This document shows, piece by piece, positions 5,190-15,105 of a DNA stretch of 64,000 nt; the stretch's first letter is position 1, and each line of letters begins with the position of its first letter. The stretch spans positions 3,658,001-3,722,000 of the forward strand of contig NZ_CP147913.1 of NCBI RefSeq assembly GCF_037414475.1. Direction: 5' to 3'. The translations under genes and the position numbers were made by a program. The notes below the pieces were generated by a model. It was not told where the DNA came from. It made no database searches and saw only the letters and a list, made by a program, of their open reading frames with translations. This DNA is from Myxococcus stipitatus (GTDB lineage: Bacteria > Myxococcota > Myxococcia > Myxococcales > Myxococcaceae).

Positions 5190-5810
5190 TTACAGGGCCA
5201 GCACCACGAAGTGCTCCTGGACGTGCCGGTTGTCTGAAGCATGTGACACCCGGAACTCGTAACGTCCTGGTTTGTCGATGAGCACTCGCAACGGAGTGGC
5301 GGAATCCCCCGTGCGTGCGGTGAACTCATGAACACAACGCGCTTCGTCACAGCCCACCAGCTCCAGAGAGGGCAGGTCCTTCAGGTGGGGATGGGAGTCC
5401 AGGGGAGGTGACGTCTCGAGCCAGACGGTGGCGGGTTCCCCTGAGTGGACGCCGTGGGTCCAGGGCAGCTCCAACCAGCCTGCGCCTTCGCCTGGGAGCT
5501 GGAAGGTGACCTCGCGGGCCGGGAACAGCTCCGGTCCCGAGCCCACGTGGCCGCGAGGAAGCACGAGCAGCACCAGCGCGCCCGCGAGCAGCGCGCCCGC
5601 CAGCACCCGCGCTCCAGGATGGTTCACCCACGCGGCCACATCCCTCCGGCGCGGTGGCGAGGAAGGCGCGGCGCGCAGTTGCTCCGCCTGCGCGAGCGAG
5701 GCCTTGAGCCGAGCCCGCAGGTGAGGCGAGGGTTTCTCGCCCCGCAGCGCCATCATCGCGGCCTGGAGCTCCTCCGGGAGCGGTGGTGGCTTCTCATCTC
5801 CCATGCTCAT
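5190..5810 (-). CDS. Probable anti-sigma factor, single-pass membrane protein
   Basis: A 206-residue protein with a charged cytoplasmic N-terminus (about residues 1-65, predicted helical), one membrane segment (about 68-87, ARVLAGALLAGALVLLVLP) and a periplasmic beta-rich C-terminal domain. Its start overlaps the stop of the upstream ECF sigma gene (5807-5810), the usual layout for a sigma/anti-sigma pair. There is no HxxxCxxC zinc motif, so it is not a classical ZAS protein. The periplasmic part has two Cys (CDEARC) that could form a disulfide. The anti-sigma role is inferred from topology and gene order, not from a recognisable domain. Confidence 0.72.
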   Translation of the reverse strand: MSMGDEKPPPLPEELQAAMMALRGEKPSPHLRARLKASLAQAEQLRAAPSSPPRRRDVAAWVNHPGARVLAGALLAGALVLLVLPRGHVGSGPELFPAREVTFQLPGEGAGWLELPWTHGVHSGEPATVWLETSPPLDSHPHLKDLPSLELVGCDEARCVHEFTARTGDSATPLRVLIDKPGRYEFRVSHASDNRHVQEHFVVLAL

Positions 5811-6433
5811 GGGCGGCCTCCCTCACCAAGAGCATGAGCCTGCCGGTCCATGGCCGACAGGAACAACTCCCCCAGCCTCGCGCGGCCCCGGGAGTGTCGA
5901 CTCTTCACCGTGCCGACGGGCAGCGACAGCACCCGGGACACCTCCTCATAGGGCAGGTCCTCCACATCGCACAGCAGCACCACCAGTCGGAACTTCTCCG
6001 GCAGCGCATGCAGGCACCCGAGCAACAACTCCGCTTCCTCGGAGCGGCACAACCGGGCCTCCGGGTCCGGCTGCTCCACGCCTCCCGCGAAGAGCGAACC
6101 CATCACCGCCGACGCGCCCTCCATCACCGACTCCAGCAGCGAGCGGCGCCGCGCCAGCGACCGGCGGTTCTCCAGGAACTGGTTGCGCGCGATGCGGCAC
6201 AACCAGCCCAGCCGGGAGCCGGGCTCGCGTGCGTCTCCGCTCAGATAGGCCCGCACCAGCGTGTCCTGGAGCAGGTCCTCCGCCTCCTGCCGGCTTCGGC
6301 ACAAGGCGAGACAGAAGCGATGGAGCCTGGGCAACAACGGCTCCATCGCGGCCTCGAACCGCTCCTGCCCGCTTTGTTCCAGATTCGTTTCAGACACGGC
6401 GGCTCCCCCACGGCCCATCCCCTGAGAAACCAA
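5807..6433 (-). CDS. ECF-type RNA polymerase sigma factor (sigma-70 family)
   Basis: A 208-residue alternative sigma factor. Region 2 is visible as HRFCLALCRSRQEAEDLLQD followed by RLGWLCRIARNQFLENRR. Region 4 is visible as ALPEKFRLVVLLCDVEDLPYEEVS with the helix-turn-helix LSLPVGTVKSRHSRGRARL. An insert of about 25 residues separates the two regions, as is common in ECF factors. The downstream gene overlaps by 4 bp and encodes a membrane protein suited to be its anti-sigma factor. The regulon is unknown; the divergent carbon-transport cluster at 6609 is one candidate target, though nothing beyond proximity supports that. Confidence 0.93.
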   Translation of the reverse strand: MVSQGMGRGGAAVSETNLEQSGQERFEAAMEPLLPRLHRFCLALCRSRQEAEDLLQDTLVRAYLSGDAREPGSRLGWLCRIARNQFLENRRSLARRRSLLESVMEGASAVMGSLFAGGVEQPDPEARLCRSEEAELLLGCLHALPEKFRLVVLLCDVEDLPYEEVSRVLSLPVGTVKSRHSRGRARLGELFLSAMDRQAHALGEGGRP

Positions 6434-6608
6434 GACATCTCAGCGAGAAATGGTCAGCTCAACCGAGACAGGTCCCGCATCAGCGCAAAAATCACAGACA
6501 AATCAAGCACGGGAACCCGCACGCGTCTCGTTCCATCCCTGGCCGTCGACGGGTGCGATTCGTTCCTGAATGCGATGTCCACCCGTGCACACGGGAGGAC
6601 GCGGCGCC
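6434..6608. promoter_or_regulatory. Divergent promoter region, ECF sigma / SulP cluster
   Basis: 175 bp between divergently transcribed genes, somewhat more AT-rich than its surroundings around 6430-6520 (aaaaatcacagacaaatcaagc). It must hold start signals for both the sigma operon and the carbon-uptake cluster. A strong ribosome binding site, gggagga at 6593-6599, precedes the ATG at 6609 and decides that start over an earlier in-frame ATG at 6570. No clear -35/-10 pair could be assigned. Confidence 0.55.
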
Positions 6609-8255
6609 ATGCAAGGCATTCAGTCCAATGTCAGTCATTCCCCTGAGTCCCTGGGGCAAACATCCTGGAGACAGGACCTGGTCTCGGGTTTTCTCGTCTT
6701 CCTGCTGGCGTTGCCGTTGTGTCTGGGTATCGCGATGGCCAGCGGCTTTCCGCCGGTGGCGGGCATCATCACGGCGGTGGTGGGAGGGCTGCTCTCGTCC
6801 TGGGTGGGGAGCGCCGGGCTGACCATCAAGGGGCCCGCGGCGGGGCTCATCGTCATCGCGCTGGGAGCGGTGACAGAGCTGGGGGGTGGAGACGGCGTGC
6901 TCGGCTACCGGAGGGCGCTGGCGGCCATCGTGGTGGCCGCGTGCTTCCAGGTGCTCTTCGCGCTCTTGCGCGCGGGGAGGCTGGGGGACCTGTTCCCCTC
7001 GGCGGTGGTCCACGGGATGCTGGCGGCCATCGGCGTCACCATCTGCGCCAAGCAGGCGCATGTGCTGCTCGGGGTGTCACCCGTGGCGAAAGAGCCGCTG
7101 GGGCTCCTGGCGGAGATTCCCGCCAGCGCGGCGCGGCTCAATCCGGAGATTGCCTTCATTGGAGCGCTGGGCCTCGTGTTGTTGTTCGGACACGCGGCCC
7201 TCGTAAAGCGCGTGGCATGGCTGAAGCGTGTGCCGGCGCCGCTGCTGGTGCTGGCGGTCGCGGTGCCCCTGGGGCTGATGTTCGACCTGGAGCACGCGCA
7301 CACCTTCACGTTCTCTCACACGCTCTTCACGGTGGGGCCCAACCACCTGGTGAACCTGCCGGACAACCTGCTCACCGCCGTCACGTTCCCGGACTTCTCC
7401 GCGGTGCTGACGCCCAAGGGACTCAAGTACGTCGCCATGTTCGCGCTGGTGGGCAGCGTGGAGTCGCTGCTCACCGTCAAGGCGGTGGACCTGATGGACC
7501 CGCTGAAGCGGCGCTCGGACCTGGACCGGGACTTGTTCGCCACGGGCCTGGGCAACCTCGCCGCGGGCCTGCTGGGTGGGCTGCCGATGATTTCGGAGGT
7601 GGTCCGCAGCACCGCGAACCTGGGCTATGGCGCCAGGAGCCGGTGGTCCAACTTCTTCCACGGCCTGTTCCTGCTGCTGTTCGTGGCCTTCGTGCCGGGA
7701 CTCATCCACCGGATTCCGCTGGCCGCGCTCGCGGGCATGCTCATCTTCACGGGCGTCCGGCTGGCGTCGCCCGGGGAGCTGGTGAAGGCGTACCGCGTGG
7801 GCTCGGAGCAGGTGCTCATCTTCTGCGTCACGATGGTCGTCACGCTGGCCTCGGACCTGTTGGTGGGCGTGGCCTCGGGCATCGTCCTGAAGACGGGCAT
7901 CCACCTGCTCAACGGAGCCTCGCCCCGGGAGCTGTTCCGGCCCGACATCCAGGAGCAGGTGCGAGCGGACGCGGTGGTGCTGCACGTGCGCGGCGCGGCG
8001 GTGTTCACCAACTTCCTGACGCTCAAGAAGCAGCTGGCCCTTCACGCGGAGGCGCCCTGCATCGAGGTCGACCTGACGGAAGCCCGGCTGGTGGACCACA
8101 CGGTGATGCAGCGGCTGCATGAAATGGCGGAGGAGCACTCGCGACAGGGACGGCGGCTCCAGGTGCTGGGATTGGAGCGGCACCGGGGGCTGTCCACGCA
8201 TCCGCTCTCCGCGCGCAAGAAGGTGCCGGGCGGAGACCTGGAGCTCACGCCATGA
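6609..8255 (+). CDS. SulP-family anion transporter with STAS domain, probable bicarbonate transporter
   Basis: A 548-residue inner-membrane transporter. The N-terminal part (WRQDLVSGFLVFLLALPLCLGIA, then GLTIKGPAAGLIVIALGA) is the SulP/BicA transport core with about 10-14 membrane helices up to residue 425. A short C-terminal STAS domain follows (about 430-530; VVLHVRGAAVFTNFLTLK, EVDLTEARLVDHTV). SulP proteins carry sulfate, bicarbonate or dicarboxylates. Here the gene overlaps dabA by 4 bp, so bicarbonate (BicA-like, usually sodium-coupled) is the likely substrate. The start at 6609 has a gggagga site 9 nt upstream. Substrate is inferred from context; the family call is firm. Confidence 0.9.
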   Translation: MQGIQSNVSHSPESLGQTSWRQDLVSGFLVFLLALPLCLGIAMASGFPPVAGIITAVVGGLLSSWVGSAGLTIKGPAAGLIVIALGAVTELGGGDGVLGYRRALAAIVVAACFQVLFALLRAGRLGDLFPSAVVHGMLAAIGVTICAKQAHVLLGVSPVAKEPLGLLAEIPASAARLNPEIAFIGALGLVLLFGHAALVKRVAWLKRVPAPLLVLAVAVPLGLMFDLEHAHTFTFSHTLFTVGPNHLVNLPDNLLTAVTFPDFSAVLTPKGLKYVAMFALVGSVESLLTVKAVDLMDPLKRRSDLDRDLFATGLGNLAAGLLGGLPMISEVVRSTANLGYGARSRWSNFFHGLFLLLFVAFVPGLIHRIPLAALAGMLIFTGVRLASPGELVKAYRVGSEQVLIFCVTMVVTLASDLLVGVASGIVLKTGIHLLNGASPRELFRPDIQEQVRADAVVLHVRGAAVFTNFLTLKKQLALHAEAPCIEVDLTEARLVDHTVMQRLHEMAEEHSRQGRRLQVLGLERHRGLSTHPLSARKKVPGGDLELTP

Positions 8256-11200
8256 GCCAGGCACCGTGTCTTGCTCCGGCGCCCGAGGACCGGCGCTCAC
8301 GGCTTCGTGCCGCGTTGGCGCGCGCCAGCCACGTGCTGCCAGCGCAGGGCCCCATCGGCGTGTTCGTCCATCACAACACGCTGCACGCCTTCGAACACCT
8401 CCCCTTCCACGAGGCGGTGGCCACCGCGAGCGACACGCTCGGCGCGGAGGGCTACCTCTCCGAAGCGCGCTTCCTGGAGCTGTACCGCCAGGGCCGCATC
8501 ACCGATGAAGACCTGCACGCGGTGCTCGCGCAACCGGGCACCTGGACACCTCCTCCGCCTCCGCGGCTCCGGTTCGAGGGCCCCACCGGCATCGACCCGG
8601 CATCCTTGGACCCGGAGGCGTTGACCCTCCTCGCGTTGCTTCACCCCATCGAAGAGGAGACCGAGGCGTCCTTGCGCTGGAAGCTGGAGGAGCAGTCCGC
8701 GGCCCGGCGGCTTCGCGCGGACCTGGCGCCAGCGTTGCATTGGAGCCTCGTCGAGCGCTCGTCACATGGGCTGCATCTCTGGCTGGACCGCGTCGGCCGG
8801 GACTGGACGATGACGGAGCTCGCGTGTGCGCTGCTCACGTCCGACCTGGAGTCCACCGTCCGCGAGGTCGCGGCGCACATCTCCAGGCCACCGCCGCGAG
8901 ACATCTCCCTCCGACTGCTGGGCATCCCGGCCACTCGCGGGATGGCCTACATCTCCCGGGTCGCCGCGCGGCTCGAGGGGCTGGAGGGGCTCACGGTCGA
9001 TGGCTGGTTGAACGCGGAGGTGGCGTGTGTGTGCGCCGCGCTCGCCACGGCGTTTGGAGGGAACGGGAGCCTGGACTCCCTGCGCAAGCGGCTGGAGAAG
9101 ACCCCCGAGCCCTTCGCGGTGAGCGCGCTCTGGTCCGCGTGCCGCACACCTCCACCGCCCCTGGAGCAGCGCCCGAGCGCAACCCCACCTCCCGTGCTCA
9201 GTCACCGTGAGCTCGTGTGCCAGGCCACGGGCGAGGACGTGAACGACCTGCTCCACCCTCACCTCATCCGCGCGTGTGCGGCCTTCCTGGATGAGGGGCA
9301 CTCCACGTGGCCCATGCCGAAACGGGAGCGAGGCTTCCACGCGGCCTGGGTCTCCCTGATGCGCGACGGGCTCGGCGCCACGCCGGACTGGCTGGAGGGC
9401 TTGGACGCGGAGCTGGAGCATCCACGCTCAGCGGACGACACCGTGCTGGATGCGCTCGACGCGCTGGGCGTCCCCGAAGCCGACTGGGAGCCATATCTCT
9501 CGCGGGTGCTGCTCGCGCTCCGGGGCTGGGCGGGGATGATGCACCGGCTGGAGCAACACCCATCGGACCGCGCCGCCCACGCGCCCCCCGCGCGGTTGAT
9601 GGACTTCGTCGCCGTGCGGCTCACGCTGGAGCGATTCGCGCTGCGCGCCGTGGCGAGGCGGTCGCTCGGCCATTCGGGCCCGCTGTCCAGTCTGTCCGAA
9701 GCGGCGAGGCGGGCCATGGCCGCCGCGCCGCGCCCCGAACGCCCGCGCGTCTGGGAGAGCTGGCGCTTCTTCCAATGGGCCCAGCTCCTGGGGCTCTCCG
9801 CGATGGAGGCGAGGACCCTTCCTCCGGGAGAGCGCCGCGCGCTGCTCTCCTGGCTGGAGGACTTCGGCCCGCGTGCGCGACAGCGCGTGTGGCAGGAAGC
9901 CTACGAGCACCACTACCGGATGGAGCTCGCACGTGGGCTCGCGCGCAACCGGCTCCGCCCGACCCATGAGCGCACGGTGACGCAGCCGCGCTTCCAGTTG
10001 CTGTTCTGCATGGATGACCGCGAGGAGTCCTTTCGCCGCCACTTCGAGGAGCTGGACGCGAGATACGAGACCCTGGGTATCGCGGGCTTCTTTGGCGTGG
10101 CCATCGACTATCAGGGCATCGACGACGCGGGCTCCGTCGCGCTGTGCCCCGTGGCAGTCACCCCGGCGCACGCGGTCGAGGAGCAGGCGCATCCGGAGCA
10201 TGCGCCGCTCGCGAGGACACGGGCCCGGCGTCGGAGCCTGTGGGCACGACTCGAGCACGTGCTGCATCAAGGGACGCTGGCGCTGGAGACCTCATGGCTG
10301 CTCGCGCCGCTGCTCGGGCTCGTGTCCATTCCCTGGCTGCTCCCAAGGCTCCTCTTCCCGCGTGCCATGAGTCAGTTCCGGCGGAGCATCAGCACGAAGC
10401 TCCTGCCTCGTCCGCGCACCCGGCTCACCAGCCTGCGAGACACCGCCACCTCCCAGCTCCCCCGCATAGGAAAGCCGCGAGGCTTCACGTTCGACGAGCA
10501 GGCGGCGCGTGTCGCCGCGTCGCTGGAGAGCATGGGGTTGACGAAGACCTTCGCGCCGCTGGTGGTGGTGCTCGGCCACGGGGCGGCGAGCGTCAACAAC
10601 CCCCACCAGGCCGCCTATGACTGCGGCGCGTGTGGCGGGCGGCACGGCGGACCGAACGCGCGGCTCTTCGCGGAGATGGCGAACCGCCCCGAGGTCCGCG
10701 CGAAGCTGCGGGAGCGGGGCCTCCAGATTCCCTCGTCGACGTGGTTCATCGGAGGACTGCACAACACCACCACGGACGAGGTGCTCCTCCACGACACCGA
10801 CTCACTCCCACCACCGCTGCGAGATGAGTTGGAGATACTCCGCGATGCCCTGGACCGCGCACGGGCCCTGTCCGCGCAGGAGCGCTGCCGCCGCTTCGAG
10901 TCCGCTCCACCCGGACTGTCTCCAACAATGGCGCTCCGCCATGTCGAGGCGCGCGCGGAGGACCTGGGCCAGCCGCGTCCCGAATTGGGCCACGTCACCA
11001 ACGCGGCCTGCATCGTGGGCCGCCGCGCGCTGACACGCGGGCTGTTCATGGACCGCAGGGTGTTCCTCATCTCCTACGACCCGTCCCAGGATGCACATGG
11101 CGCGCTCGTCGAACGCATCCTCCTGGCGGCCGGTCCCGTCGGCGCCGGCATCAGCCTGGAGTACTACTTCTCCTGCGTGGACAACCCGCTCCACGGCTGC

Positions 11201-11617
11201 GGCTCGAAGCTGCCCCACAACGTGACGGGGCTGCTCGGAGTGATGGACGGCGCCTCGAGCGACCTGCGCACGGGGCTGCCCCGGCAGATGATTGAAATCC
11301 ATGAGCCCATGCGGCTGCTCCTGTACGTGGAGGCCAGCACCCAGGTGCTCTCGGCCATCCTCGAGCGGCAGCCCCCGCTGCGTGAGCTTGTCGGAAACGA
11401 GTGGGTGCGGCTCGCCAGCATCGACCCGCTGACGGGCGCGCAGCACCTCTTCACCTCTCGGGGATTCGAACCCCTCGCCCCTCCCGACGACTCGTTGCCC
11501 CAGGTGGCGTCCTCGCCGGACTGGTACCGAGGCCACCACGACTTCCTCCCACCCGCCCTCATCCGAGCCCATTCCAGCGCGCCACGGCCCCACGAGAGGA
11601 GCGCGTCATGGCGCTGA
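8252..11617 (+). CDS. dabA: DabA, inorganic-carbon uptake subunit (DUF2309/UPF0753)
   Basis: A 1121-residue cytoplasmic protein of the DUF2309 family, the carbonic-anhydrase-like half of the DAB (MpsAB) CO2/bicarbonate accumulation complex. The predicted zinc ligands are all present: Cys586 and Asp588 in LLFCMDDREES, His776 in VLGHGAASVNNP, and Cys791 in YDCGACGG. Their spacing (2 and 15 residues between pair members) equals that described for Halothiobacillus DabA. The early VHHNTLHAFEHLPF motif is also typical. The gene overlaps both neighbours (4 bp with sulP, 10 bp with dabB), so translation is probably coupled. It is somewhat longer than typical homologues (about 800-1050 residues), with the extra length mostly in the middle. 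Confidence 0.94.
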   Translation: MSQAPCLAPAPEDRRSRLRAALARASHVLPAQGPIGVFVHHNTLHAFEHLPFHEAVATASDTLGAEGYLSEARFLELYRQGRITDEDLHAVLAQPGTWTPPPPPRLRFEGPTGIDPASLDPEALTLLALLHPIEEETEASLRWKLEEQSAARRLRADLAPALHWSLVERSSHGLHLWLDRVGRDWTMTELACALLTSDLESTVREVAAHISRPPPRDISLRLLGIPATRGMAYISRVAARLEGLEGLTVDGWLNAEVACVCAALATAFGGNGSLDSLRKRLEKTPEPFAVSALWSACRTPPPPLEQRPSATPPPVLSHRELVCQATGEDVNDLLHPHLIRACAAFLDEGHSTWPMPKRERGFHAAWVSLMRDGLGATPDWLEGLDAELEHPRSADDTVLDALDALGVPEADWEPYLSRVLLALRGWAGMMHRLEQHPSDRAAHAPPARLMDFVAVRLTLERFALRAVARRSLGHSGPLSSLSEAARRAMAAAPRPERPRVWESWRFFQWAQLLGLSAMEARTLPPGERRALLSWLEDFGPRARQRVWQEAYEHHYRMELARGLARNRLRPTHERTVTQPRFQLLFCMDDREESFRRHFEELDARYETLGIAGFFGVAIDYQGIDDAGSVALCPVAVTPAHAVEEQAHPEHAPLARTRARRRSLWARLEHVLHQGTLALETSWLLAPLLGLVSIPWLLPRLLFPRAMSQFRRSISTKLLPRPRTRLTSLRDTATSQLPRIGKPRGFTFDEQAARVAASLESMGLTKTFAPLVVVLGHGAASVNNPHQAAYDCGACGGRHGGPNARLFAEMANRPEVRAKLRERGLQIPSSTWFIGGLHNTTTDEVLLHDTDSLPPPLRDELEILRDALDRARALSAQERCRRFESAPPGLSPTMALRHVEARAEDLGQPRPELGHVTNAACIVGRRALTRGLFMDRRVFLISYDPSQDAHGALVERILLAAGPVGAGISLEYYFSCVDNPLHGCGSKLPHNVTGLLGVMDGASSDLRTGLPRQMIEIHEPMRLLLYVEASTQVLSAILERQPPLRELVGNEWVRLASIDPLTGAQHLFTSRGFEPLAPPDDSLPQVASSPDWYRGHHDFLPPALIRAHSSAPRPHERSASWR

Positions 11618-12981
11618 CCGATTTACCCGAGGGATGGCTCGCGGCGGCTGTCCCCTTGAGTCCCCTGGTGGCGCTCGTCGTCCTGGGGAGTGTGATGCTC
11701 CTGCACCGGGCGCCCGGTGAGCGCTGGGTGGCGCGATGGGTCCTCGGCTCCCTGTGGCTCTCCTTGGGCTGCGCGGTGATGACCGCGGCGCGCTACCTGT
11801 CGCGCTCCTGGAGCGTGCTGGAGGTCAACCCGGGTCCCCTGCTCACCCGGGGCCTCGCGAGCCTGGAGCCCTCGCTCCACATCGACGGCCTGACGGTGAC
11901 GATGATGCTCCTGACGAGCACCCTCACCCTGCTCCTGGGGCGGTTCTCGGTCACCTATCTGCATCGCGAGCCGGGCTTCGCGCGGTTCTTCCTGCTGCTC
12001 GCCTTGTTCGCGTCGGGGATGTCATGGGTGGTGGAGGCGGGAAGCCTGACCCTGCTCTTCGTGGGCTGGGAATGGGTGGGCCTCGCCTCGGTGCTGCTCA
12101 TCGGATTCTTCCAGGAGCGAGCGTCACCCGTCGACGCGGGGCTCGTGGCCCTGGGCACCTATCGCTTCTGTGACCTGGGACTCGTGGTGGCGCTGGTCCT
12201 GCTGCATCACCTGATGGGCACGACGCAGTGGGACACCCTCTTCGGCCCCCGCGCCGCGATGTCCCTGGGCATGGCCCCCGCCACGGTGCTGGGCTTGTGT
12301 CTATTGCTCGCGGCCATGGGCAAGTCCGCGCAGCTCCCGTTCAGCGCCTGGCTTCCGCGTGCGATGGAAGGCCCCACGCCCTCCAGCGCGCTGTTCTACG
12401 GAGCGCTCTCCGTGCACGCGGGCCCCTATCTCCTGCTGCGCGCCGCGCCCCTCCTGGTCCACGCCCCGCTCGTGCGAGGCGCCCTGGTCCTGGTGGGCCT
12501 GCTCACCGCCCTGCACGCAACGTTGGTGTGGCGCGTCCAGACCGACGTGAAAGGCGCCCTCGCCCAGGGCGTGCTCACCCACTTGGGCTTGATGTTCGCG
12601 GAGGTGGGGCTCGGGCTCTACACGCTGGCGCTCGTCCACCTCGTGGCCCATGCGTTCCTGCGGTGCCTCCAGCTCCTGCGTGCCCCCTCCGCGCTGCGCG
12701 ATGCCCAGGCCCGCCGCGCGGCATTGCGCGACACACCCGCGCCCTCCATCGCCCGAGCCCACCGACTCATACCGCCCCGGCTCTATCGCCTCGCGATGGA
12801 GCGCTTCGCGCTGGACGTGTTGTTCGAGCGCGGAGGCCTCCATCCCATCACACGCCTGGTTCACTGGTTCGACGAACGGGAGCGGCGCTGGGCTGGCACG
12901 CTGGAAGGCACCGCTCCAGCGCCCGAGCTCCCACGCCCCGCCGAGCCCGCCTCCAGCAATCCCTCCACGGGTGCCGCATGA
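11608..12981 (+). CDS. dabB: DabB, NuoL-like proton-conducting membrane subunit
   Basis: A 457-residue polytopic membrane protein of the NADH-ubiquinone oxidoreductase chain 5 (proton_antipo_M) family. Family landmarks: FVGWEWVGLASVLLIGFF, with the TM5 glutamate; GKSAQLPFSAWLPRAMEGPTPSSALFYG, with the TM7 lysine Lys239; and the DabB-type ending ALSVHAGPYLLLR in place of the NuoL sequence. In DAB systems this subunit couples ion movement to DabA-driven hydration of CO2. The ATG at 11608 (gagaggagcgcgtcATG) overlaps the dabA stop; the open frame extends upstream inside dabA but without membrane character. The C-terminal 60 residues are hydrophilic and shorter than in NuoL (no lateral helix). 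Confidence 0.9.
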   Translation: MALTDLPEGWLAAAVPLSPLVALVVLGSVMLLHRAPGERWVARWVLGSLWLSLGCAVMTAARYLSRSWSVLEVNPGPLLTRGLASLEPSLHIDGLTVTMMLLTSTLTLLLGRFSVTYLHREPGFARFFLLLALFASGMSWVVEAGSLTLLFVGWEWVGLASVLLIGFFQERASPVDAGLVALGTYRFCDLGLVVALVLLHHLMGTTQWDTLFGPRAAMSLGMAPATVLGLCLLLAAMGKSAQLPFSAWLPRAMEGPTPSSALFYGALSVHAGPYLLLRAAPLLVHAPLVRGALVLVGLLTALHATLVWRVQTDVKGALAQGVLTHLGLMFAEVGLGLYTLALVHLVAHAFLRCLQLLRAPSALRDAQARRAALRDTPAPSIARAHRLIPPRLYRLAMERFALDVLFERGGLHPITRLVHWFDERERRWAGTLEGTAPAPELPRPAEPASSNPSTGAA

Positions 12982-14486
12982 GTCCCCTCTTCCTGCTGCC
13001 CCTGCTCCCGGCGTTGGGCGCCTTGCTGCTCATCGCACCACGTCACGCGCCTCCCGCCCGGTCGCGGAACATCGCCAGCGTCACCGCGGTGCTCACGCTC
13101 TGCCTCTCGCTCGGGATGCCGCATCACCTGGCGCTGGACGGCGCGAGCACGTTGGCGCTGCCCTTCCTCTGTCTGCTCACGCTCGCGACGATGCTGGCCG
13201 CGCCTCGCCAGGCGCTGGGCCGCGGTGCGCTCGTCACGCTCCTGCTCACGCAGAGCGCGGCGCTGGGCTTCTTCTGCGCGAGCACCCTCTTCACGGCGCT
13301 CCTCCTCTTCATCGCCATGACGACGCTCCCCGACCTCCACCTCTCACGTGAGGAGCCGAGCACGGGAGGCCCACGTCCTCGCAGCGTGGTGCGCATGTAC
13401 CTGCTCATCGGCGGCGTGCCCCTGGGAGCAGCCACGCTCCTCGTCGGGCTGCTCGGATGGCACCCCACGCTGTGCGCCTTGTTGCTCCTGGGCACGTGCA
13501 CACGGCTGGCGATGTTGCCTCTCCACACGTGGCTCCCCGTGTGGATGACCCGAAGCCCCTCGGGCTCGAGCACCCTCTGGATGAGCCTCATCGCGAGCCT
13601 CCACCTCCTGAACCGCTGGCTCCTTCCGCTCCTGCCCCCGGAGTGGGCCACGACCACCGCGCTCCCGGTGCTGGCATCCCTGGGCGCGGGCACCGCGCTG
13701 TACGGCGCGCTGCTCGCGTTCATCCAGAAGGACCTGCGGCGCATGCTGGCCTTCGCCGTGATGAGCCAATCCGGATTGATGCTCGCGGGAGTGGCCTCGG
13801 CGGACCCCGACGGCATCCACGGCGCCTGGCTTCATTGCCTCGCCGCGGGCATCACCTTCACGGGCCTGGACCTGTTGGTGCGCGCCCTCGAGGCACGCAC
13901 CGGCACGACGGACCTGGGACACCTCGGTGGACTCTCCGCGCGTATGCCCCGGATGGCCACGCTCTTCCTCCTGCTCTGCCTCGCGGCGATGGGACTGCCC
14001 GGCACGCTGGCCTTCGTGAGCGAGGACTTCCTGCTCCGCGGCACGCTGGGTGCGCATCCCTGGCACACCCTGCTGCTCCCACCCGCGCTCGCGCTCAATG
14101 CCTTCACCTTGCTGCGAGCCTGTCACCGCGCCTTCCTCGGCCCCGCTCGCGCGAGCCCCATGCCCCTGCAAGACGTATTGCCTCGCGAGCGATGGATGGC
14201 GACGGTGCTGGTCCTGGCCGTCATTGCGGGCGGACTGGCACCTCCAGCGCTCCAACGCTCCCTCGCGTCTTCCGAGGCCAGGCTGGCGAGCGTGCTCCTC
14301 CCAGAAGCCCTCGCCTCCACGCCAGGGGCAGGTGCGAGGGGGCTGTCTGGCATTGCTCCCAAGCGTGCGTACCCTGAACGCGAGTCCTCACGACATTGGA
14401 GGGAGCCACATGTTCCAGACGAGCGGACGAAGTGTCTTGAGCGGAGTTCTCGCGGCGACCCTGCTGCTGGGCTTGAGCGGCTGTAG
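12978..14486 (+). CDS. NuoM/MrpD-like second antiporter subunit of the Dab cluster
   Basis: A 502-residue polytopic membrane protein. Start ATG 12978 overlaps the dabB stop (ATGA). The complex I/Mrp antiporter fold shows in RLAMLPLHTWLPVWM, ALLAFIQKDLRRMLAFAVMSQSGLML and LGGLSARMPRMATLFLLLCLAAMGLPGTLAFVSEDFLL (each a separate helix region). At the two places where NuoM has essential lysines (TM7 and TM8) there are arginines here: Arg176 in the TRLAMLP segment and Arg254 in DLRRML. The last 25 codons overlap the next gene by 77 bp in another frame, so the true C-terminus may be short of family length or extended by drift. A second antiporter subunit is not part of the minimal two-gene DAB system. 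Confidence 0.85.
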   Translation: MSPLFLLPLLPALGALLLIAPRHAPPARSRNIASVTAVLTLCLSLGMPHHLALDGASTLALPFLCLLTLATMLAAPRQALGRGALVTLLLTQSAALGFFCASTLFTALLLFIAMTTLPDLHLSREEPSTGGPRPRSVVRMYLLIGGVPLGAATLLVGLLGWHPTLCALLLLGTCTRLAMLPLHTWLPVWMTRSPSGSSTLWMSLIASLHLLNRWLLPLLPPEWATTTALPVLASLGAGTALYGALLAFIQKDLRRMLAFAVMSQSGLMLAGVASADPDGIHGAWLHCLAAGITFTGLDLLVRALEARTGTTDLGHLGGLSARMPRMATLFLLLCLAAMGLPGTLAFVSEDFLLRGTLGAHPWHTLLLPPALALNAFTLLRACHRAFLGPARASPMPLQDVLPRERWMATVLVLAVIAGGLAPPALQRSLASSEARLASVLLPEALASTPGAGARGLSGIAPKRAYPERESSRHWREPHVPDERTKCLERSSRGDPAAGLERL

Positions 14487-15105
14487 CTCGAGCCGCTCCA
14501 GCGCAAAGGTGGATGAATCCTGGATGGCTCGCGTCCCCACCGATGACATGGAGGACGTGCGCCAGGCGCAACTCGTCGTGAACACCGCGGAGGAGAACCT
14601 CACCCGCTCGAAGGTCGCGCTCAAGGATGGCAAGGACGAGCTCAAGGTCGCCAAGGAGCGCGAGAAGGTCGTCCAGTCGCAGCAGAAGGTCGCGAAGAAG
14701 GCGATGGAGATTGGCAAAACGACCGACCAGAGCCAGGACGTCACCCGGGCGCAGAACGACCTCCAGCAGGCCGAGGAGAACATGGCCGCCGCCAAGGCGG
14801 AGACGGCGTGGAAGGAGAAGGCCGTCACCACGCGTGAGTCCATGGTGAAGATGCGCGAGCGCGAGCTGGACGTCGCCAAGGCGCAGCTCAACCAGGCCCG
14901 CTACCGCACTCTCGCGCGCAACGACGACCCGCGCGCCAAGGAGCTCGACCGCGACAAGGTCAACGAGCAGGTGGCGAAGGCGCGCGGCGAGGCGACGAAG
15001 GAGCAGGAGCGGGTGAACGCGAACCTCAAGCAGGAGCGTCAGGCCGAGGCCCGCTGGAAGGAGGCCGACACCAAGGCCAAGGCCTACGGCGGCAGCGGCC
15101 GGTAG
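14410..15105 (+). CDS. Coiled-coil lipoprotein
   Basis: A 231-residue lipoprotein. The signal peptide ends in the lipobox LSGC (Cys25), followed by Ser-rich residues. The mature part is almost entirely charged alpha-helix (Lys/Glu/Ala/Gln heptads from about residue 50 to 225), so an elongated coiled coil in the periplasm or at the outer membrane is expected. The ATG at 14410 has a strong ttggaggg site just upstream, although it lies within the end of the previous frame. The function is not recognisable. The overlap links it physically to the Dab cluster, but it may simply be an independent envelope protein. Confidence 0.85.
   Translation: MFQTSGRSVLSGVLAATLLLGLSGCSSSRSSAKVDESWMARVPTDDMEDVRQAQLVVNTAEENLTRSKVALKDGKDELKVAKEREKVVQSQQKVAKKAMEIGKTTDQSQDVTRAQNDLQQAEENMAAAKAETAWKEKAVTTRESMVKMRERELDVAKAQLNQARYRTLARNDDPRAKELDRDKVNEQVAKARGEATKEQERVNANLKQERQAEARWKEADTKAKAYGGSGR

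Follow-up and report, generated by a model that had tools for sequence, protein, structure and literature searches.

A SulP–DabA–DabB–NuoM-like gene cluster of Myxococcus stipitatus and a possible proton path divided between two antiporter-like subunits

The window analysed here, a stretch of 64,000 nucleotides from the genome of Myxococcus stipitatus (10.3 Mb in one contig, NZ_CP147913.1; window at positions 3,658,001 to 3,722,000), carries four consecutive genes for a SulP-family anion transporter, the subunits DabA and DabB of a DAB-type system and a third, NuoM-like subunit. Proteins of the window were assigned to families with Pfam and NCBIfam models. Of 129 loci compared, counting the window, 80 have one NuoM-like gene behind DabB, and these we call window-type; class A loci have the order dabB–dabA and class B loci are of the carboxysome type. 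The genes, and the residues on which the argument turns, are listed below by window position (aa, amino acids; TM, transmembrane helix).

6609..8255, + strand: sulP, SulP-family anion transporter, 548 aa (PF00916, 1e-55)
8252..11617, + strand: dabA, zinc (carbonic-anhydrase-like) subunit, 1121 aa (PF10070, 2.4e-253; 9rd0_A, 3.2e-77)
10007..10624, + strand: dabA active-site stretch with Cys586, Asp588, Arg590, His776 and Cys791, conserved in 169/169 aligned DabA
10265..10351, + strand: dabA membrane finger, without Glu at the position of DabA2 Glu444 and with Glu679 earlier in the stretch (alignment)
11608..12981, + strand: dabB, NuoL-like, TM1–11 and an amphipathic C-terminal helix, 457 aa (PF00361/PF00662; AlphaFold2)
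12070..12072, + strand: dabB Glu155 (TM5; Ile151 in DabB2), in 80/80 window-type and 0/6 class A sequences
12322..12324, + strand: dabB Lys239 (TM7), in 80/80
12978..14486, + strand: gene for the NuoM-like third subunit, 502 aa, 14 TM (PF00361; AlphaFold2; fold match to Nqo13/NuoM)
14025..14027, + strand: Asp350 of the NuoM-like subunit on TM12b, an acid in every row (49/49 window-type; Asp 24, Glu 25)

An initial annotation had described five genes joined by start/stop overlaps. The overlaps are present among sulP, dabA, dabB and the NuoM-like gene (4, 10 and 4 nucleotides), and these four genes (6609–14486) hold together in relatives, but the fifth, encoding a lipoprotein, is a neighbour restricted to the genus, as described below. 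Of 96 genomes from the family of the window, 37 carry PF10070. Thirty-six stretches with PF10070 were taken from that family and 22 of them (L031–L052) encode a DabA that scores above 700 bits against that of the window; 21 of the 22 keep the order sulP–dabA–dabB–nuoM for which a genome search had been proposed, while L052 gave no SulP match. A profile of the NuoM-like subunit exceeds 330 bits in 23 of the 96 genomes, in all 23 beside a long dabA by coordinates, and the other matches listed reach 282 bits or less, so that the gene is not scattered. The tree suggested for this subunit (62 rows) places 29 window-type rows on one side of a branch with SH-aLRT support of 99; the host's own NuoM stands apart from them and groups with the upstream NuoM of Proteobacteria. 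The four-gene cluster is therefore real and widespread. It has also been noted before: clade C of COG3002/YbcC, as defined by Klimchuk and colleagues in 2017, places ybcC upstream of a nuoL homologue and often includes genes for a COG0659 sulfate permease and a COG1008 NuoM (PMC5700660), and the neighbourhood in the window matches this description. The gene combination is thus already in print, whereas the accessible part of that paper holds no residue analysis, truncation or fusion for the clade.

The active site of DabA appears to be complete. All four residues first annotated as zinc ligands, Cys586, Asp588, His776 and Cys791, are in place and align with Cys351, Asp353, His524 and Cys539 of DabA2 (PDB alignment, 9rd0), but the zinc ligands of DAB2 are two cysteines and a histidine, the aspartate sitting in an Asp–Arg dyad (PMC13144422), so that Asp588 belongs to the dyad; its arginine is Arg590. 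The five catalytic residues (Cys351, Asp353, Arg355, His524 and Cys539 of DabA2) are invariant throughout the alignment of 169 rows, from which rows of 640 residues or fewer had been dropped, and to judge from these residues the protein is probably active, as had been supposed. A PF10070 domain with a Cys2His zinc site and an Asp–Arg dyad is a mark of the DAB/MpsAB family, and so is the NuoL-like partner that adjoins it.

The membrane finger of DabA departs from DAB2. Replacement of Glu444 by alanine or glutamine abolishes DAB2 activity (PMC13144422), and this residue is glutamate in 25/25 class A and 11/11 class B DabA. None of the 80 window-type DabA has a glutamate at the position, nor is there one within three columns of it. 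Glutamate is likewise missing from all 29 DabA of multi-NuoM loci, 16 of which have aspartate (a count made by script that includes L242, the same genome region as L263, and L229, where one NuoM was seen), and from the three fused-type DabA (L074, L075 and L250); it is kept in 5 of the 21 DabA without assignable neighbours. Since Glu444 is a feature of the DAB2 mechanism, we regard its loss as a variant.

DabB is shortened. Its AlphaFold2 model (predicted local distance difference test score, pLDDT, 90.8) has 11 membrane helices and ends in a long amphipathic one, and the best fold match is NuoL, with a TM-score of about 0.7 by query; the 15 helices of DabB in DAB2 are not found, the tail lacking TM12–15. 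Behind the TM11 motif the tail measures 83–125 aa in 79/79 single-NuoM loci and contains no hydrophobic segment in 70 of them and one in nine. Two-subunit loci have tails of 179–200 aa with four hydrophobic segments (6/6), and the tails of 22 class A and 11 class B DabB have three or more, counted from a loose anchor that sometimes included TM11 or earlier helices. The remaining part of DabB is rich in conserved polar residues: besides Glu155, the counterpart of which is Thr or Phe in 6/6 class A proteins, and Lys239, window-type rows keep Arg186, Asp189, Lys315 and His344 in 80/80 and His348 in 77. DabB has 28 positions that are ionizable in at least 88% of rows, loops included; of 109 downstream DabB, 57 were aligned.

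The NuoM-like subunit has retained the complete fold and lost the residues of one half. The AlphaFold2 model (pLDDT 88.1) has 14 helices and is ordered to about residue 446, with pLDDT under 50 for most of residues 464–502; the fold is that of NuoM, with Nqo13 as the best match (Foldseek TM-score 0.77/0.83). Conservation was read from an alignment of 55 of the 100 NuoM that follow DabB (49 from single-NuoM and six from multi-NuoM loci), near copies and cut sequences having been left out. TM5 Glu, TM7 Lys and TM8 Lys of the pumping antiporters each occur in 0/49 window-type rows: the TM5 column is never acidic, although an acid stands two columns off in three rows, and the TM7 column holds Arg in 46 rows and Ala in three. 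The host NuoM at L261, taken as that of complex I from its NuoL–NuoM–NuoN order, has Glu, Lys, Lys and Glu at the TM5, TM7, TM8 and TM12 places. Seven positions of the NuoM-like subunit are ionizable in at least 88% of rows, and Asp350, directly after the TM12 Glu position, is the sole one with an acid in all; Glu404, at the start of TM14, is acidic in 45/49. The equivalents of Asp350 in complex I are Asp386 of Nqo12 and Phe378 of Nqo13, the proposed periplasm-side (P-side) gate, and protons of Nqo13 are released at the Nqo12–Nqo13 interface (PMC11496545); in simulations, exchange of Phe378 for Asp (F378D) raises hydration (PMC13220270). Some relatives with a shorter DabA have next to it a shorter NuoM that consists of the C-terminal half only (L053–L057, L059 and L060). 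At one of the 80 window-type loci, L135 from a metagenome-assembled genome titled Candidatus Kuenenia, the NuoM-like gene is split into two frames, through decay or assembly error.

A reduced form of the same subunit appears to be present in carboxysome-type loci. Class B loci consist of dabB, a gene for a membrane protein X of about 250–275 aa and a long dabA; a P-II gene lay downstream in 3/3 tested and a LysR gene upstream in 2/2 tested. The same order occurs in Halothiobacillus neapolitanus, where X is described as 'a putative transmembrane hypothetical protein' (PMC4633670). Pfam gave no match for X in 3/3 tested. The NuoM-like profile matches X in all 11 such loci (L214, L216, L217, L220, L221, L240, L244, L245, L247, L251 and L252) with E-values of 1.4e-10 to 2.3e-5, and 41 controls (reversed X and SulP) score 28 or worse; conversely, a profile of X finds NuoM-like proteins down to 1.2e-9, with the same controls at 0.16 or worse and the host's own NuoM at 0.67. 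The possibility that X is a fragment of DabB was discarded, since hhalign gave 96.9% (1.7e-10) for the NuoM-like alignment against 0.6% for DabB. X occurs in 28 of the 258 genomes of the class searched, each time directly beside a PF10070 match. On this profile evidence, X of class B loci is the C-terminal half of a NuoM-like subunit. It has no acid at the Asp350 column, with an Asp about one residue further on in 6/11, and this, together with the finger Glu kept by class B, fits a need for one acid or the other.

The second antiporter-like subunit is also tied to DabB by gene fusions. At L250 and L254 a single frame of about 1050 aa downstream of dabA encodes a truncated DabB followed by a NuoM-like protein, the NuoM part of which groups in the tree with the first NuoM after DabB of Proteobacteria. 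The DabB tails of L075 (3.9e-17, over TM12–13), L074 (3.2e-13, over about TM9–14) and L232 (1.1e-5) match the NuoM-like profile, as does that of L233 (6.6e-10), a locus with dabB–dabA order; the remaining 44 of 49 DabB tails gave whole-sequence E-values of 0.028 or more. L074, L075 and L232 had been considered as counter-examples devoid of NuoM, a role they lose through the NuoM C-terminal ends fused to their DabB tails. The TM12–13 end is thus the part common to every version. The Glu-Asp motif of TM12 is kept in the L074 and L075 fusions and was not seen in L232. No NuoM was seen after DabB in six dabB-upstream loci, in L074 and L075 and in seven loci that end soon after or within DabB. In L233 and L260, DabB is about 750 aa long, has about 20 hydrophobic segments and lies upstream of a short DabA.

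The class is distributed over Planctomycetota, Verrucomicrobiota, Myxococcota, Acidobacteria, nitrosomonads, methanotrophs and Magnetococcales, as found in the best 80 of 585 loci of a scan of named genomes; since these loci were picked by their likeness to the window class, its frequencies among them are not estimates. In most proteobacterial loci of the set one NuoM lies before DabA and two after DabB, an arrangement (NuoM–DabA–DabB–NuoM–NuoM) seen at L107, L122, L142 and others, where two of the three extra subunits have all key residues. These are the NuoM labelled U and N3, which keep TM5 Glu, TM7 Lys, TM8 Lys and TM12 Glu in 22–23/23 and 6/6 cases, respectively; in M2, the NuoM directly behind DabB, TM7 carries Arg, TM8 carries Lys and the TM12 position is followed by His and not an acid, each in 20/20. 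At L263 (contig 1, 75000–91000) SulP and DabA are followed by MrpF-, MrpG-, MbhD/E-, MnhB- and NuoK-like genes and a final run of NuoM, NuoL and NuoM, so that DabA is joined to an Mrp-like set to which the DabB-like protein of this locus belongs. L112 and L119 (Schlesneria) have a long DabA with no DabB or NuoM match within 8 kb on either side, and L124 (Verrucomicrobiaceae) has two DAB clusters that face each other, each with DabA, DabB and NuoM matches.

Taken together, the window-type NuoM-like subunit lacks the cytoplasm-side residues (0/49) and DabB lacks TM12–15, leading us to read the two subunits as halves of one path. This complementarity is read directly from sequences. From it we infer that DabA, DabB and the NuoM-like protein form a stable complex, a membrane-bound DAB-type carbonic anhydrase that hydrates CO2 at the zinc of DabA; SulP would join it as an anion carrier in some cases only. 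Protons would descend the proton-motive force from the periplasm to Asp350 on TM12b of the NuoM-like subunit, cross the subunit interface and enter the cytoplasm-side half of DabB, passing Glu155/Lys239, Lys315 and His344/His348 on their way to the cytoplasm and DabA; the NuoM-like subunit and DabB would be adjacent, in the manner of NuoM and NuoL in complex I. This passage, either direct or through electrostatic gating of the DabB ion pair, would move the DabA finger and so let bicarbonate form and leave. In the two-subunit DAB2 the periplasm-side role falls to finger Glu444 of DabA and TM12–13 of DabB, all of which are missing from the window type. That the system is a three-subunit vectorial carbonic anhydrase driven by the proton-motive force, with one proton path split over DabB and the NuoM-like subunit, seems to us somewhat better than an even bet on the sequences and models at hand. 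The chances are evenly balanced for the wider proposal that a single antiporter-type proton channel was divided between two proteins in evolution: DabB lost TM12–15, the periplasm-side acid passed from the finger of DabA to TM12b of a third subunit derived from NuoM, and such subunits, at times reduced to a C-half or a TM12–13 end, are general parts of DAB systems, including the membrane protein of DAB1.

Several observations weigh against a single path of this kind. Calculations for complex I suggest that a proton may meet a high barrier on passing directly from one antiporter to the next (PMC11496545), which perhaps makes gating a better description than a relay. Lys347 of the DabB2 path is replaced by Arg352 in the window DabB (80/80 window-type), and Glu155 is also found in L074 and L075, which have no separate NuoM gene. 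The finger alignment falls in a gappy region, and the L250 and L254 fusions are near copies that probably record one event. At L233 the finger Glu is kept together with a long DabB tail and a NuoM C-half in fused form, and finger Glu and NuoM are therefore not strictly exclusive; L069 has a DabB with TM12–15 together with three NuoM-like genes. Since the proteobacterial U and N3 subunits keep all four key residues, a single path does not hold for every relative, and complexes with these intact NuoM may carry more than one. A search of the open-licence literature found no biochemistry on this class.

The proteobacterial NuoM subunits bear on the suggestion, made in the initial annotation, of two ion channels. 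If each antiporter-like subunit were a complete channel moving its own ion, two or more such channels would yield more ions per CO2, as suggested by Klimchuk and colleagues on the assumption of outward pumping, with energy-yielding reactions moving ions out (PMC5700660). The 14-helix fold of the NuoM-like protein would allow this and the proteobacterial U and N3 residues favour it, but in the window type the TM5, TM7 and TM8 residues are lost from the one subunit and TM12–15 from the other (79/79), and in some relatives all that is left of NuoM is a C-half, or a C-terminal end that continues DabB. Two ion channels are accordingly not supported for the window, and complete channels appear unlikely. 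A better, though still minority, case can be made for a NuoM-like subunit that is structural or a gate, holding DabB or tuning its Glu155–Lys239 pair, with DabB and the DabA finger as the sole route for protons. Interface ion pairs do control the antiporters of complex I (PMC11496545), DabB keeps many ionizable path residues, and Glu679, conserved in 22/22 rows of the window's family (window and 21 near relatives), could replace Glu444. An acid at the Glu679 position is, however, found in just three of the other 58 window-type fingers, DabB has no TM12–13 with which to build a periplasmic half of its own, and conservation of the TM12b acid in 49/49 would be surprising in a part whose role is purely structural. 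Hydration of CO2 might finally be secondary, with the cluster serving another end, for example the control of pH or osmotic balance through Na+ or bicarbonate. A link to Na+ has been argued for MpsAB (cited in PMC13144422), L263 joins DabA to an Mrp-like set, and the host genome gave two beta-carbonic anhydrase matches and none for the RuBisCO large subunit; against this, the residues of the CO2 site are invariant, and DAB2 is fully active without sodium and does not rescue a sodium-transporter mutant (PMC13144422), which makes such a purpose improbable.

Compared with known systems, the cluster shares with DAB2 of H. neapolitanus (9rd0) the zinc site, the Asp–Arg dyad, the hydrophobic finger stretch and a NuoL-like DabB with TM1–11 and ion pairs, and differs in having a third subunit, an 11-helix DabB, Glu155 and no Glu444, where DAB2 has two subunits, a 15-helix DabB, Ile151 and a required Glu444. 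The 2026 structure paper on DAB2 deals, in its accessible part, with two subunits, mentions NuoM only in a helix comparison and uses neither 'third subunit' nor 'operon' (PMC13144422). Carboxysome-type loci likewise have a long DabA and a third membrane protein, the NuoM C-half, but their dabB lies upstream, DabB is of full length, the finger Glu is kept and a P-II gene follows; gene X of DAB1 of H. neapolitanus is likened to theirs by the description of its locus only (PMC4633670). With NuoL and NuoM of complex I the two antiporter-like subunits share their folds, the TM12 acid and the TM5 Glu of the NuoL-like part, whereas no quinone or redox arm is seen in the cluster and both subunits are degenerate, in complementary halves. 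What appears to be new is the way in which DabB and the NuoM-like subunit have lost complementary parts and residues, their fusions, and the identity of X: no description of these was found in the open-licence literature.

Three further features flank or overlap the four genes, the first two of them absent from the initial annotation.

5807..6433, − strand: ECF-type (extracytoplasmic function) sigma factor gene, divergent, likely regulator (Pfam Sigma70_r2/r4)
6512..6534, + strand: ECF-type promoter-like motif GGAACC-N10-TCGTTCC facing sulP (motif search)
14410..15105, + strand: lipoprotein gene, outside the system

The lipoprotein gene overlaps the NuoM-like gene by 77 nucleotides in a different frame, and its product found no family match in the Pfam and NCBIfam searches. 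It was dropped from the cluster because, among loci with the DabA type of the window, it is found in the fetched stretches of 7/9 from the same genus and 0/13 others. SulP was annotated as SulP/BicA-type, of which the family stands and the subtype is unproven: the NCBIfam BicA equivalog model reaches 126 bits with a cut-off of 880, and the BicA identity was set aside. A sulP gene lies on the same strand, before or after the dab genes, in 53 of 80 single-NuoM loci, a count in which contig ends were not controlled; that SulP carries bicarbonate is a guess.

The sigma gene is found divergently beside the cluster in 20 of the 22 relatives with the DabA type of the window, and its product would be expected to control the cluster. 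The motif at 6512–6534 is one that we take to be an ECF promoter from the consensus for such promoters. A relaxed form, GGAACC-N10-TC(G/A)T, precedes sulP in 20 of the 22 loci, window included (not in L032 and L034), and in seven the sigma gene is faced by a copy as well; such sites number 33 in the 704,040 strand-bases of the 22 stretches. In the 10.3-Mb genome the exact longer motif has a single occurrence; a wide regulon was rejected, since one-mismatch sites number 13 against eight for the reversed pattern, which is near chance.

The host has, besides this cluster, two further sets of antiporter-like genes, taken as complex I and Mrp. Given a host with no RuBisCO match, it is plausible that the cluster feeds other carboxylases in a heterotroph. 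In the heterotroph Staphylococcus aureus the DabA/DabB homologues MpsAB supply bicarbonate. Related extra subunits occur in many other bacteria, probably including carbon-fixing ones.

How protons drive one-way hydration of CO2 in DAB is debated, as is the passage of protons through the half-channels of the complex I antiporters, and the cluster bears on both questions, since here an antiporter pair appears to have been taken apart by nature. In the window type the cytoplasm-side half would come from one subunit and the acid on the periplasm side from the other; of the second, some lineages retain a short end that is fused to the first. A handful of point mutations, assayed by CO2-dependent growth, could thereby put the half-channel idea to the test. 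An identity is also proposed for the 'hypothetical' membrane protein of carboxysome loci, a point of importance for efforts to transfer CO2-concentrating machinery to other hosts. Through the complementary losses, the fusions and the identity of X, what was a curious extra gene becomes a testable model.

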